From Prevotellaceae bacterium (GTDB lineage: Bacteria; Bacteroidota; Bacteroidia; Bacteroidales; Bacteroidaceae), in the NCBI GenBank assembly GCA_021204845.1, contig JAJPYT010000197.1, forward strand, positions 1-47,400: 47,400 nt of DNA, in the 5' to 3' direction. This document shows positions 13,306 to 19,392 of the stretch, piece after piece. A program made the position numbers and the translations under genes. The notes below the pieces were generated by a model. It worked only from the letters and a program-made list of their open reading frames with translations. It was not told the origin of the DNA and did not search any database. Numbering within the stretch: position 1 is the first letter of the stretch; every line of letters begins with the position of its first letter.

Positions 13306-14367
13306 ATGGAAGGAAAAAATTATCTTAAGTTAGTGTGGTTGCTTGGCTATATAGCCTTTGCAGCAGTAAGTTGTTGGGCGACGGCAGAATCATTATATAT
13401 GCTATTGCCAAGTTGGCCAAAGGTGATGTGCTGGGTAGTTACAGTGGGTTTCTTCATTGTTGCCTCAATCGGCACAAAGATGATAGTGGACAGCTTCAAC
13501 CCAAACATCTATCTGGAGCATCGAGGAATGCGCCTTGTGGGTGGAATCATCATTGTACTGATGTTTTGGCTAATATGCAGTATGCCTACGAACACGCATA
13601 CGTTTTTCTACCGAAATGTTATCAGTGAAACTGTGGCACGCGACATCTCCACTACGCAAAGCTACCTTCGTCAGATAGAAAACAACACCTATAACAAGGC
13701 ACAGGCAGAACTAAAGGTAAGTGAGCTTAGAAATAAAGTGGAACTAAAATTAGGTGAACTCGAAGCTGAGATAAAGAATGAAGCAAATCCAGGTGATGGT
13801 CCTAAGTCGCAAGAAATTCGGAGAGAACTCGCATCGTTGCTGAATGTTCCCAAGATAGAATCGCTTACATATAAAAGCACTACCAAACAACAGCGGGAAA
13901 TATTATGTGACGCTTATCGCTCTAAAATATATGCCTTGCTTGATAACAGAATAAGCAATATCAGAAATGAGATACTATCTCCCAGCCCTCAAATAGTTAA
14001 GGAAGCAAAGACAGCAGGGAAGAATCTGGTAGAATTGAAGGGATTTATTGACGACGGAACCGTAAACTTGTATAACGCTAAGGATATAACCACTCAGGTT
14101 TGTGACAAACTTAACAATGGTTATAATATAATAAAACTGAATAGCATCTTTGTTAACTTCAATTCTGTGGATGATGAAAAGAAATACACAGACAATGACC
14201 CTGTCACGAGGGTTAAGAGCCTGAACAGCGTCTTTGACGTATGGTGTGATTATATCAAGGGGGAATATAATGGTCAGGGCTTTATCTACTGGATACTTAT
14301 ATCTATCCTTGTTGATGTTGCCGCCTTTGTGTTCTTTGACTTAGCATTTAGAAAAACAGAAGAATAA
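13306..14367 (+). CDS. Membrane protein: three N-terminal TMs, large helical loop, one C-terminal TM
   Basis: Hydrophobic segments near residues 10-30, 38-58, 78-95 and 325-345; charged, coiled-coil-like middle; first gene of a tight operon. Confidence 0.8.
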   Translation: MEGKNYLKLVWLLGYIAFAAVSCWATAESLYMLLPSWPKVMCWVVTVGFFIVASIGTKMIVDSFNPNIYLEHRGMRLVGGIIIVLMFWLICSMPTNTHTFFYRNVISETVARDISTTQSYLRQIENNTYNKAQAELKVSELRNKVELKLGELEAEIKNEANPGDGPKSQEIRRELASLLNVPKIESLTYKSTTKQQREILCDAYRSKIYALLDNRISNIRNEILSPSPQIVKEAKTAGKNLVELKGFIDDGTVNLYNAKDITTQVCDKLNNGYNIIKLNSIFVNFNSVDDEKKYTDNDPVTRVKSLNSVFDVWCDYIKGEYNGQGFIYWILISILVDVAAFVFFDLAFRKTEE

Positions 14368-14391
14368 ACAATCATTTAAAACAATACGACT

Positions 14392-15429
14392 ATGCCAGAG
14401 CTAAATTTAAATTCTAAGGAAGAAAGTTCTCAAATAAAAATAGACCAACCAAACGCTCCAACAGAAGTGATTAGTTCCACAGAAAATTCTCCAACTACAG
14501 TTGTACAAGAAGGTCCTTCGTCGGAAGTATTTGATAACTCTAACAAAAATCCCATAGATATACATGACAAAGAAAAACCAATAACAGTTGTACAAGAAGG
14601 TTCTTCGTCAGAAGTAGTTGATGACCCTAACAAGATTCCCATAGATATACCTGACAAGGATACACCTATAATCATTTTTTTTGGACCGCGTGGTTGTGGC
14701 AAGACAATGACGTTAGTGAGGTTAAGCCGTTATTTGATAGGGAAAAGTTATAAAGTCAACCCCGAGGAATCTTTCAGACCAAATGATGATACGAAATACA
14801 AGCAACTGTGTAAAAACTTTGATTCAATGATTAACAAAAGCCTTGCAGCAGGCTCAACAAATAAGATTGATTATTTACTTGTGAAAGTTTATGATAAGGT
14901 TGGAAATCCGCTATTCCAAATTTTGGAGGGGCCAGGAGAGAATTATTTCGATCCCAAAGATCCAGAGAAACAATCCCCTGCTTATTTGAATTACATTATC
15001 AACAGAAATAACAGAAAGATATGGGTTGTTATGCTCGAACCTGTCAGCACGAAATATGGTATGGTGGAGAAAGATAGAAAAGGCTATGTGGATAAGATAA
15101 ATAACCTGAAAAAAAGAATAAAGCCTGCAGACAAGGTGATATTTCTATTAAACAAGATAGATGAAACGGCTTTCGTTATTTCTCCTGGGAATGTAAATAT
15201 GAGGCAGGCTAGAAAGTACGCAAATGATAACTATCCTAACATATTCGAAGCGTTTAAGAATTCTGTGCCTATACTCAACTGGTTTAAACCCTATAATTGT
15301 GACTTCACCGTATTTCAAACAGGTGATTACACGGTTTTAAAAGATGGCGTGACTCAGAGTTTTCAACAAGGAGATGAAATTTATCCCCGAAAATTATGGA
15401 ATCTTTTATTGAAGAAGATTAGAGGGTAG
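14392..15429 (+). CDS. P-loop GTPase-like protein with an N-terminal repeat region
   Basis: Walker A/G1 GPRGCGKT (nt 14683-14706); IFLLNKIDE as G4 NKxD (nt 15151-15162); LEGPGENYFDP in the G3 position. Confidence 0.82.
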   Translation: MPELNLNSKEESSQIKIDQPNAPTEVISSTENSPTTVVQEGPSSEVFDNSNKNPIDIHDKEKPITVVQEGSSSEVVDDPNKIPIDIPDKDTPIIIFFGPRGCGKTMTLVRLSRYLIGKSYKVNPEESFRPNDDTKYKQLCKNFDSMINKSLAAGSTNKIDYLLVKVYDKVGNPLFQILEGPGENYFDPKDPEKQSPAYLNYIINRNNRKIWVVMLEPVSTKYGMVEKDRKGYVDKINNLKKRIKPADKVIFLLNKIDETAFVISPGNVNMRQARKYANDNYPNIFEAFKNSVPILNWFKPYNCDFTVFQTGDYTVLKDGVTQSFQQGDEIYPRKLWNLLLKKIRG

Positions 15430-15434
15430 AAGTT

Positions 15435-16838
15435 ATGCAGGTTGATTTGTTTGTAGGAGGAGTTCCCCAGGGACAAGACTTCTGGGGAAAAGAAGAAGAT
15501 AGAGCCTACATAGAAGGTTTTTATGTGAAAGATGATAAGCAGAAGTTTCTCGTGCAGATACGTACTCTGAACTATAAACCATATTGTTGTTATAATTATT
15601 TGATGTATCGGGATGTCATTGCTTATGATAGTAGAGGGGGCTCCTATATAGGTCTTACATTAAGGTTTGATGCTTATTGTAGGGACATTCTTACCATATA
15701 TAACATACTTGACCTCGTTTATAAGAAGTATATATTAGGCAGTATATTAAAAGGTGAAAAAGGAAAGTTGAAATACACTGTTGGGCAGTTTGAGAATACG
15801 TCAGCTGTATTTAAACAAATGGAAGATGAGATTGTAACGTTAATAAATAATAAATGCTCATCGAGTAGCTTTGCTTCTTTGAACGGTTTCCCCTTGTTGG
15901 GAGCGAACTGTCCCCAGATATATCTATATGATGGTTATACAAATGATGATCTTGATACTTTAGTGAGGCAGTATGGAGGAGTGGCTATATCTCCTTATTA
16001 TAAGAGTAAACAGACTGCTACTTTGGAGCAGACGTACGAAACGAGATTACTGAGCGCGAAGCAACAGTATGAAAAGGAGTTGCAATGGAAGAAACAAGAA
16101 TACGAAAAAATTATAAATGATAATAATGCGGCTCTATCTATGGCTATGAAAACGCTTCAGGAACAGTTGCAAACGATAGCCAGTGGGTTGGAAGCTGAGG
16201 TTAAAAGGCTTGGTCGTGTAAGGGATGTCTCTGACATAGTTGCTAAGATAGAAGAGCCTCTTAAACAGATTGCGAATCCTATAGTGGAATTAGCTACTGC
16301 AATGCGTAGCTTTGAACATGGAGAAAACAATCTTGAGGAAGAAGGGGATGGAGGTATGGTATCTAAGCTTAGGCACAGAACCCAGAAGTTTTTGCCATTT
16401 GTTCTTGTAGTAATAAGCTTCATATTATTGCTCTACATAGCATATAACATCCATGGTCTACGTTCTTCGAGGATAAGCAGTAGTGAAACTAAGGTCGAGG
16501 AAACAGAGAGCAAAATAACCTTATCCGAAGAAATGGCTGAGCAACCTGATGGGTCACAAGCAAGCGAAGAGGTAGCAAAGTCCCAGCCAGTACCTGGTGT
16601 CGATGATGTCGCGATAAATATTGTGGAATATTCTGGTAAGGGCAACTTGCGGATAGGTACGACTTATACTGTTGAGGCTAAAAACGGTACTTCTAATGGG
16701 CGATGGAAAGTGGACGGCGCACATATGGAGAATGTGCCTGATAACAGAATAAAGATCACACCGGATAGCACGTCTGTGAGCATTATATATGCTATAGATG
16801 GTAAGGAAATAAAAAGAAGAGAATTAAGAGCGCAATGA
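15435..16838 (+). CDS. Novel N-terminal domain + coiled coil + single TM + C-terminal beta-rich domain
   Basis: KFLPFVLVVISFILLLYIAY TM; coiled coil before it; beta-rich ~120-aa tail with GRWKVDGAHMENVPDNRIKITPDSTSVSIIY. Confidence 0.78.
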   Translation: MQVDLFVGGVPQGQDFWGKEEDRAYIEGFYVKDDKQKFLVQIRTLNYKPYCCYNYLMYRDVIAYDSRGGSYIGLTLRFDAYCRDILTIYNILDLVYKKYILGSILKGEKGKLKYTVGQFENTSAVFKQMEDEIVTLINNKCSSSSFASLNGFPLLGANCPQIYLYDGYTNDDLDTLVRQYGGVAISPYYKSKQTATLEQTYETRLLSAKQQYEKELQWKKQEYEKIINDNNAALSMAMKTLQEQLQTIASGLEAEVKRLGRVRDVSDIVAKIEEPLKQIANPIVELATAMRSFEHGENNLEEEGDGGMVSKLRHRTQKFLPFVLVVISFILLLYIAYNIHGLRSSRISSSETKVEETESKITLSEEMAEQPDGSQASEEVAKSQPVPGVDDVAINIVEYSGKGNLRIGTTYTVEAKNGTSNGRWKVDGAHMENVPDNRIKITPDSTSVSIIYAIDGKEIKRRELRAQ

Positions 16839-17374
16839 GAGTACAACAATTTATTTTAGGGTTGCTTTTGTTTGCAACCATTATCGCCTGCGGTGACGGA
16901 AAAAACGTTAGAGTTCCTGTATATACTGAAGTTGATGATGACGAAGAGGAGGAAGTGGAGCAGGATATTAAAACTGGTGATGAGGTAGTAGTGCCTTTCC
17001 GCAGCGAGAATGGTGTTAAGTATGTGCAGGTTAAGTTGAATGGTGTCGGCTTAGAGATGGTTTTCGACACAGGTTGCTCAGGAATGCATATATCTGTTGC
17101 GGAGGCGCAGTACCTTTACAGTAAGGGGACACTTACAGAAGAAGACTTTCTTGGTGTTTCGCCAACACAAACTGCAGACGGTAGTGTCAATGTGAATATG
17201 GTGGTGAATCTTCGAGAGGTTATTATTAATGATCAGATAAGATGCCCCGATGTTACTGCTACCGTCTCGGACAACACAAACGCTCCCCTACTTTTAGGAA
17301 ATGACGTGTTGGATAGGCTTGCGACCATCACGATAGATAATGTTAATAGTAATCTAATCTTCACGTTCAAGTAA
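16835..17374 (+). CDS. Retropepsin-like (clan AA) aspartic protease, predicted lipoprotein
   Basis: Lipobox LLLFATIIAC; catalytic VFDTGCSGMHIS (DTG at nt 17066-17074); LLGNDVLD hydrophobic-Gly motif. Confidence 0.85.
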   Translation: MRVQQFILGLLLFATIIACGDGKNVRVPVYTEVDDDEEEEVEQDIKTGDEVVVPFRSENGVKYVQVKLNGVGLEMVFDTGCSGMHISVAEAQYLYSKGTLTEEDFLGVSPTQTADGSVNVNMVVNLREVIINDQIRCPDVTATVSDNTNAPLLLGNDVLDRLATITIDNVNSNLIFTFK

Positions 17375-17375
17375 C

Positions 17376-18734
17376 ATGAATTGCACATCATACGTTTTCG
17401 CCAGCATTCGTGGAGTCTACTCTCAATACCCTAACGACTACACAAAACCATTATTCCATAAGTTCCTTGAGCTATCTTCAGCCAATTCTCAGATAATAAT
17501 GCACAGAAACGAAGGACTTGTCTATCACGGATATGTCCGCAAGTTAGAAGGAGGCTTGTCGTATATAGGCTTCTGCGTGGTACTAAACGGAGCTATGTTT
17601 GCCCGTACTAAACAGATGTTTCCTGTATTTGAGAAAGTGCTGACGAGTATGGCAGAAACTTATGGATTGCTTGCGTTGAACGACAAAGGAGATGTTATCC
17701 CCAGTTTCTCGGAATTTACTGAGCACCAAAAGAAGGTGGAGAATATCATTGTCGATATCAATAAGAATATAGAAGCCTCTGTTACGGATAGAGATTTGAA
17801 AGCGATACTCCGTGAGACTTATACGAATACGAGTGTCGAGTATAAAATATTTCCTGCAGAGGAAAAGGCAGAAGATATATTTGAGGCTGTTAAGTTATAC
17901 GGCTATGTGTGCGTGACAAACGATAAACACTATGTCTCCACTTTCCTTGCCAATTACCAAAAGGAGATTGAAACCTATGTTGCCAAAGTAAAAGAAATCG
18001 AAAAGGAATACAGCGAGCTAAAGGAGAAGTACGACAAGCAAGATGCGCAGAACAAGGTATCCGCGATAATAAAGGGGCTAAGCAAGATAGTTATAACTGC
18101 GGGTATATGCCTATGTGCAGTACTTCTGTTTATTCGTTTAGAGGATAAAATTACTTTGGAAAAGACTAAAACGGAACTGAATGATGCGCAGTCTTCAATT
18201 GAATCACAAAATGAAACTATAGCGGGACTAAGAGATAAAGTAACCAATTTGCAAGAAGACGTGAACAATTTGCAAGAAGACGTGAAATCGGAACAGAAGC
18301 GGACGACAGAAGCAGAAAGTGAATATGCCGATTTCAAGCGCTACGTAGGTCGCTATATGCCTGTGGTGATAACTGATGTGAAAATAGGAAATGTATATAA
18401 AGATGGAGATATTGAAACGGATTACGGCAATCATATTAAAAGTAACAGTACTATGTTCCTTCAGCCCCAGATAACTTATACGGGAATAATAACAGATGTG
18501 TCAATAACTGTATATATTAGGCTTTATACTCCATCTGGAAAAATGTCTAAGGTAGACTCCCAGAGGGACTATTCAACATCTGACAGTTTTTATGTAAATA
18601 GTGGAGATAGCAATACCATAACATTAGTAGGATTGAGGAACGCCTCACAAGGATACTGGTCAAAAGGAGATTATAGATACGAAATCTGGTATGGCAAGGT
18701 GTGCTTATACGCCAAGACTTTTACTATTTATTGA
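17376..18734 (+). CDS. N-terminal domain + TM + coiled coil + C-terminal Ig-like beta domain
   Basis: TM IVITAGICLCAVLLFIRL; heptad coiled coil; C-terminus WSKGDYRYEIWYGKVCLYAKTFTIY; 1-nt spacing to the previous gene. Confidence 0.78.
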   Translation: MNCTSYVFASIRGVYSQYPNDYTKPLFHKFLELSSANSQIIMHRNEGLVYHGYVRKLEGGLSYIGFCVVLNGAMFARTKQMFPVFEKVLTSMAETYGLLALNDKGDVIPSFSEFTEHQKKVENIIVDINKNIEASVTDRDLKAILRETYTNTSVEYKIFPAEEKAEDIFEAVKLYGYVCVTNDKHYVSTFLANYQKEIETYVAKVKEIEKEYSELKEKYDKQDAQNKVSAIIKGLSKIVITAGICLCAVLLFIRLEDKITLEKTKTELNDAQSSIESQNETIAGLRDKVTNLQEDVNNLQEDVKSEQKRTTEAESEYADFKRYVGRYMPVVITDVKIGNVYKDGDIETDYGNHIKSNSTMFLQPQITYTGIITDVSITVYIRLYTPSGKMSKVDSQRDYSTSDSFYVNSGDSNTITLVGLRNASQGYWSKGDYRYEIWYGKVCLYAKTFTIY

Positions 18735-18958
18735 TGTTTTTGTTATGAGATTGAGTGATATAGGCTTATTTCTATAAAATTATAGAGGGCGTATCAAAAT
18801 GGATTTTGCAAGTGGTCTGAGAGACGGAGCCACTCAATAGGGATGTTTCGAGGTGAAACCACCGAGGTCTACTGCTGCCAGAAGCCTTTCACATCCTTCT
18901 TCTGTCGTATAACGATATGAATGATGACAGGTAACAGCCCTTTTAAGAAGCCACAGAA

Positions 18959-19282
18959 AGTTTATTATATTAGATTTTATATATATAATATCATATAATA
19001 TAAACTATCCTATCAAATAAGAACGGTGCAACCCTCAGCGAAACTAACCTTGCGATAAGCGAGAGGAGAGGGGGCCTCGACACTCTCCCGAGCGCCAGCA
19101 AGCTCAGCGAAGCCAATGATACTAAGTATTTACCCCTGTGCTAAAAGTTTATCAGATTATCACATACGCGCATATATAGATAATGATAAACTGATAAACT
19201 TCTTGCTGGCGGTCAATCCTCGGCGAAGCTACGAAGTTTATATTATATGTGCGTATATAGATAAATATAATATAATAAACTT
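18959..19282. repeat. Three AT-rich palindromes with AGTTTAT...ATAAACT ends
   Basis: 18959-19006; 19145-19201 (11-bp perfect arms AAGTTTATCAG/CTGATAAACTT); 19234-19282. The last two share a core like CRYATATATAGATAA. Confidence 0.65.
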
Positions 19283-19358
19283 TTTGTAAATCTTCAATTG
19301 TCTGTTTATTAGCGAACAAGCCAGGTTACAGTCAACGGTGCAACCCTCAGCGAAGCTA
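19022..19358 (+). repeat. Interspersed direct repeat AACGGTGCAACCCTCAGCGAARCTAA (copies at 19022 and 19334)
   Basis: Two near-identical copies; near-identical reverse-complement copy at 260-282. Confidence 0.75.
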
Positions 19359-19392
19359 AACGAACCTAACGCTACCTGTTCCGCTTCCCCTA

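Follow-up and report, generated by a model that had tools for sequence, protein, structure and literature searches.

What kind of machine is encoded by the five adjacent genes at positions 13306-18734 of a 47,400-nucleotide (nt) stretch of Prevotellaceae bacterium DNA (assembly GCA_021204845.1, contig JAJPYT010000197.1; the whole stretch is called the window below)? An earlier note on this DNA described an uncharacterised GTPase and protease operon, perhaps for signalling or defence across the envelope, in an accessory island. We find that the five genes, here named A to E, form a conserved, horizontally moving unit, or cassette. In a judgement that is finely balanced, they may constitute one envelope-spanning signalling machine with a GTPase switch, periplasmic sensing and an optional protease, probably serving in conflict. 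The open reading frames (ORFs) all lie on the + strand, spaced by 24, 5, -4 and 1 nt; coordinates and spacing, when recomputed, came out as the note had given them. Its product types also agree with hydropathy, Pfam matches and motifs: four transmembrane (TM) segments and a large loop in A, a GTPase in B, one TM segment each in C and E, and a protease lipoprotein in D. The genes are as follows (aa, amino acids).

13306..14367, + strand: gene A, 353 aa; inner-membrane protein with 3 TM segments, a ~230-residue loop (predicted periplasmic) and 1 TM segment (from hydropathy, locus conservation and homology to the second clade described below).
14392..15429, + strand: gene B, 345 aa; predicted Ras/TRAFAC-like GTPase, a putative distant relative of DO-GTPases (from motifs, predicted fold and profile comparison).
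15435..16838, + strand: gene C, 467 aa; N-terminal alpha/beta domain (residues 1-190, longin/profilin-like in the model), coiled coil, one TM segment and a short predicted periplasmic tail (from hydropathy and model).
16835..17374, + strand: gene D, 179 aa; predicted retropepsin-type aspartic protease lipoprotein (DTGCSG; Cys19) (from Pfam PF13975 and conservation).
17376..18734, + strand: gene E, 452 aa; N-terminal domain apparently paralogous to that of C, coiled coil, one TM segment, predicted periplasmic coiled coil and C-terminal tail (from hhalign and hydropathy).

The five ORFs are real genes, because both their sequence and their order are conserved across dozens of genomes. A pattern-plus-tblastn scan of 85,462 species genomes returned 80 loci, and 108 relatives of B were detected, nearly all in Bacteroidales; the few loci whose titles name Clostridia, Bacilli, Clostridiales or Opitutales lie on short metagenome contigs that may be misbinned. 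The cassette is spread over about a hundred species, for the most part Bacteroidales of gut and rumen; genomes of Segatella copri and Parabacteroides distasonis are among them. Six relatives inspected keep the order A-B-C-D-E, each at a different genomic place (one has no recognised D and one a shortened E). Among the 55 complete loci, those with both ends inside the contig, A is present in 53, B in 55, C in 49, D in 40 and E in 50; these counts are lower bounds, since genes were scored with profiles built from six or seven rows. The exact string ABCDE occurs in 25 of them and ABCE in 12. The genome-neighbourhood comparison that the earlier note had suggested thus bears out its view of the genes as a unit: homologues of the GTPase co-occur with the other genes in conserved order, and this order is kept across loci at differing genomic places.

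Over about 12.5-19.5 kb of the window the G+C content drops from 0.55-0.58 to 0.36-0.43; the cassette has 0.39 and its flanks 0.56, so that its AT-richness, remarked on before, is confirmed. The same holds for relatives, in which G+C is lower than in the flanks at 64 of 71 loci (mean -7.4 points). The tree of A intermingles loci from Prevotellaceae, Bacteroidaceae, Muribaculaceae, Tannerellaceae and Porphyromonadaceae, and those of the window's genus are scattered over it. The disagreement between tree and host family, together with the low G+C, indicates horizontal movement. Full-length B is found in 8 of 139 genomes of the genus; weak matches to the B profile in 77 of its genomes were rejected as short P-loop stretches. 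No empty site was definable among the relatives inspected, because the PAP2 and bat genes do not lie upstream of grpE in them.

B carries a P-loop (GPRGCGKT), a G3 motif (LExPGE) and a G4 motif (NKID), and its AlphaFold2 model (pLDDT 84.5) has a Ras/TRAFAC-like GTPase fold, with a Nog1-like protein, Roco, Rab and G-alpha among the top Foldseek matches. Assignment to the AAA, STAND or SRP-type ATPases was rejected: matches in Pfam and PDB were weak and confined to the P-loop area, and the fold is Ras-like. The N-terminus is modelled with low confidence and is probably disordered; an in-frame tandem duplication of 87 nt (85% identical; window 14491-14664) lies within it.

The placement of B draws on a second clade, found in Bacteroidota outside Bacteroidales (L194, L195 and L204-L209; L numbers are locus handles), in which genes for a 4TM protein, a GTPase and a C-like protein follow in the same order. 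In profile comparison with the window family, the second clade scored 98% (E 5e-14) for A, 97% (E 8.6e-11) for B and 74% (E 2.7e-5) for the N-terminal domain of C (C-N); the core triad thus appears to be retained. At L209 the triad is joined by a retropepsin lipoprotein and a DUF805 gene. In L153 a subtilase adjoins a triad of 4TM protein, GTPase and C-like protein; the L153 4TM protein, compared alone, has no sequence relation to A, and the whole L153 GTPase was uninformative as a query, N-terminal repeats having pulled in repeat proteins. In L206:52-5100 and L207:5227-10563, giant proteins of 1682 and 1778 aa, RHS-repeat-like by eye, precede the triad on the same strand, with about 70-80 nt between (two genomes of one second-clade genus).

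The second-clade GTPases of L153, L194, L206 and L209 pass a Pfam cut-off for DO-GTPases, and the second-clade GTPase profile matches genuine DO-GTPase operons (L151, L152, L230-L235) at 96-98%. The G3 motif reads hhDxxGE in the majority of DO-GTPases and F[LI]ExSGE in the majority of second-clade members; in the window family it is LExPGE. The profile chain through the second clade and these motifs suggest that the window GTPase is either a remote branch of the DO-GTPases or their sister group. The note's pointer to the GTPase systems of Kaur, Burroughs, Iyer and Aravind was therefore a good one. Two loci have GTPases in tandem, L113 (56% identical) and L126 (81%); diverged extra copies lie in L105 and L091.

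On the membrane side, hydropathy gives A four TM segments with the ~230-residue loop between TM3 and TM4, and C and E one TM segment each; judged in this way the inner membrane is crossed, as an envelope-spanning machine would require. A was tried as a DUF4407 protein (PF14362) and rejected, since hhalign gave about 2%, that is, no profile homology. The first ~190 residues of C and E (C-N and E-N) align by hhalign at 99.7% (E 3.4e-24), and the two proteins appear to be paralogous in these N-terminal cytosolic domains. The two single-TM coiled-coil proteins listed in the note are present, and this kinship is a correction to its account of the products. The model of C-N (pLDDT 96.7) has the strand and helix order b-b-a-b-b-b-a, which matches the longin order. 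Its nearest solved structures are TagF (E 2.8e-3) and the FLCN-FNIP2 complex (prob 0.99), in which FNIP2 bears a longin domain; these are weak matches with a TM-score of about 0.3, and C-N is tentatively regarded as a longin/profilin-like GTPase-partner domain. A weak Pfam match makes the periplasmic tail of C Ig-like. One E-type protein (L016:12278-13396) seems by eye to end in MORN-like repeats in place of the beta domain, an example of a tail swap.

D matches gag-asp_proteas (PF13975, 2.9e-10) and Asp_protease_2 (2.3e-8), both above cut-off. Its signal peptide ends in Cys19, a Cys retained in 98% of homologues, and the retropepsin motifs, D-[TS]-G and hhG, are present (D78, G80, L153 and G155 at 100% in 63 homologues). 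These features point to a retropepsin-type (clan AA) aspartic protease lipoprotein. D is an optional part of the cassette: on the tree of A its presence switches about 12 times, by repeated change and not in one clade. Because it is missing from many loci, it is considered a modulator and not core.

How the parts may work together is suggested by their rates of change. In 118 locus pairs with B at least 55% identical, mean identity is 0.61 for B, 0.64 for A, 0.59 for D, 0.42 for C-N and 0.40 for E-N; beyond the TM segment it is 0.25 in the tail of C and 0.25 in that of E. The L048/L050 pair has 0.90 in A, 0.85 in B and 0.83 in C-N, with 0.38 in the C tail and 0.19 in the E tail. Conserved machinery with fast outer tails looks like the pattern of arms-race receptors. 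Coupling was assessed by partial Mantel tests on the 43 loci with all five genes, each pair being controlled for the other three (500 permutations). Coupling is 0.66 between A and D and 0.56 between B and C-N (each 0/500 permutations), 0.29 between D and E-N, and only 0.19 between the adjacent genes A and B. Linkage by itself does not account for the A-D coupling, because these two genes are not neighbours; D is coupled at 0.38 to the loop of A versus 0.19 to its TM part. These couplings would fit a model in which D works on the loop that A extends into the periplasm and B docks on C's cytosolic domain, and they yield two sharp predictions, that D acts on A and that B binds the N-terminal domain of C.

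The evidence best supports signalling across the inner membrane as the mechanism, at about an even chance. GTPase B would be held at the membrane, in the cytosol, by the N-terminal domain of C and probably by that of E, these domains being seated on the TM stalks via coiled coils. A would be the inner-membrane hub, with its large loop facing the periplasm, where the lipoprotein protease D may act on it or bind it. The periplasmic tails of C and E, which evolve fast, would detect some cue beyond the inner membrane, and the signal would pass inward through the stalks and change the state of the GTPase in its cycle. The output would leave through A, as an action on membrane or envelope, and also through D in cassettes that have it. 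Circumstantial evidence makes conflict the most likely purpose, for example with phage or other invaders, or with an attack on the envelope. The cassette would then extend GTPase-centred conflict systems into the envelope.

The conflict use is further suggested, by analogy, by occasional ZorAB-like motor genes. MotB-like (ZorB-like) genes in or beside the cassette are:

L069:11402-13709, L074:530-1213, L084:4387-6722 and L095:1680-2351.

A MotA/ExbB-like or large TM neighbour accompanies the MotB-like gene in L069 and L084 (MotA/ExbB-like in L084). These motor-like neighbours have weak Pfam matches to MotA_ExbB and MotB_plug, and PADLOC scores two scanned neighbours as ZorB (best 3.5e-11) and one as ZorA (5.8e-9). 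A more specific proposal is possible, with the balance somewhat against it: an envelope-guarding immunity class in Bacteroidota, not described before, in which C and E would be hypervariable periplasmic receptors, the GTPase a membrane switch and the retropepsin a periplasmic protease cleaving the 4TM hub, sometimes joined by a ZorAB ion motor. A small GTPase would in that case carry a signal from outside across the inner membrane of a bacterium.

Known systems share parts of this design. The published GTPase-centric conflict systems are defined by GAP1, GASH and FNIII (Kaur et al., 2020; eLife 52696, PMC7159879); their DO-GTPases are TRAFAC members with a conserved Glu in Walker B, and GAP1 is made up of GAP1-N, -M and -C domains. 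The cassette resembles these DO-GTPase/GAP1 systems in a GTPase that probably belongs to the same broad branch, by the profile chain, with a G3 motif of the form [DE]xxGE; in a partner gene downstream of the GTPase, membrane and peptidase themes and occasional tandem GTPases; and in variable components beside a constant core (25% identity in the tails of C and E, against about 60% in A, B and D). It differs in its near-constant 4TM protein A, its two paralogous single-TM partners and its lipoprotein retropepsin; the 2020 paper (PMC7159879) contains none of the words 'aspartyl', 'retropepsin' or 'MotA'. No GAP1 match is among the Pfam matches listed for C or E members, hhalign to GAP1-N1 gives 7.5% for C-N and 0.6% for E-N, and no Pfam match to GASH or FNIII repeats was found in A-E. 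Because GAP1, GASH and FNIII were not found, the cassette is not filed as a DO-GTPase/GAP1 system. In Zorya, ZorAB is a peptidoglycan-binding ion motor in the membrane that is required for phage defence (PMC11890865). The likeness lies in the optional MotA/MotB-like genes beside a few cassettes and in envelope sensing with a long cytosolic relay; the cassette core, however, is GTPase-based, ZorA and ZorB are absent from the window's five genes and from most loci, and ZorC, ZorD and ZorE were not seen among the neighbours scanned. DUF4407 proteins, like A, have four TM segments and a long loop but no profile relation to it. The GTPase MglA has a roadblock-domain partner, MglB. MglA-MglB and Rag-FLCN/FNIP, like the cassette, combine a Ras-like GTPase with an alpha/beta partner, that of the cassette resembling longin domains in its model; the structural similarity is weak and the cassette partners are TM proteins. 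A literature search for the composition of the cassette found no example. The composition, which joins a Ras-like GTPase, receptor-like periplasmic tails and an aspartic protease, is novel and previously unnamed; by its GTPase the unit is a variation on a known kind. Neither outcome that the earlier note had set out as refuting its view was observed: the homologues do occur together, and the genes match no named system.

Several observations weigh against a conflict machine built in this way. The 140 neighbouring ORFs scanned are mixed and largely housekeeping, with no clear defence island; a few accessory families occur among them (DUF4143/AAA_14, YhcG nucleases, HipA, Fic, integrases), the scan covering these ORFs and no background set. 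A-E encode no nuclease, TIR or other known toxic effector, and the cassette is in no record of the plasmid and phage collections searched; a single relative, L127 (an IMG/VR contig), lies on a contig classed as viral. PADLOC gave no strong match for the five window proteins, and with neighbours so mixed the note's defence suggestion was not borne out. B itself falls below the Pfam DO-GTPase models PF19975 and PF19993, and compared directly with DO-GTPases it reaches a moderate 88% (E 2.8e-6), with the TRAFAC control YchF at 0.3%. Loose linkers or linker disorder may account for part of the tail variability, the Mantel tests leave some relatedness in, and the B-C coupling could reflect gene adjacency.

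Three other explanations were weighed. The cassette could, though we consider it unlikely, be an accessory machine for envelope housekeeping or stress (an aid to motility, polarity or secretion, like MglA-MglB), with the GTPase and longin-like partners organising a membrane complex and D as a maturation protease; the Ras-like fold of B and the weak C-N matches to TagF and FNIP2 are compatible with this, and ZorAB-like genes have relatives among gliding and Ton motors as well (PMC11890865). Such a role sits poorly with the very patchy presence in the genus, the horizontal spread, the low G+C and the fast tails. Those tails, hypervariable and periplasmic, might instead bind or neutralise the toxins or surface proteins of rival bacteria, and the RHS-repeat giants that immediately precede the triad in L206 and L207, with the type VI secretion regulator TagF as nearest (weak) fold match of C-N, point the same way. 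Yet the RHS neighbour is restricted to one second-clade genus and was not noticed beside Bacteroidales cassettes, and A-E include no known toxin or immunity family, which leaves an antagonism or immunity module of this kind rather improbable. More improbable still is a canonical DO-GTPase/GAP1 system whose GAP1 has diverged past recognition, C and E being GAP1-N proteins. This was considered because of the GTPase homology chain, the position of the C gene after the GTPase gene, like GAP1, the tandem GTPases, and a C-N alignment in register with GAP1-N1 (columns 1-95 to 4-103); it was not adopted, given the low hhalign values, the lack of a Pfam GAP1 match and the lack of a GASH or FNIII gene.

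As for the immediate surroundings, the cassette is accessory, as had been proposed, and mobile; 'island', however, is a generous label for a single cassette beside which no tRNA, integrase or Rfam RNA was found. The tRNA, Rfam and promoter scans were otherwise uninformative, and no flanking direct-repeat pair marking the cassette ends was found in the window. In L108 a SIR2-domain protein (16157-16846; Pfam 7e-14) is encoded a few genes downstream of the cassette in the same direction. The 0.9-kb gap between cassette and grpE in the window holds 26-nt direct repeats at 19022-19047 and 19334-19359, and long AT-rich inverted repeats at 18953-19287.

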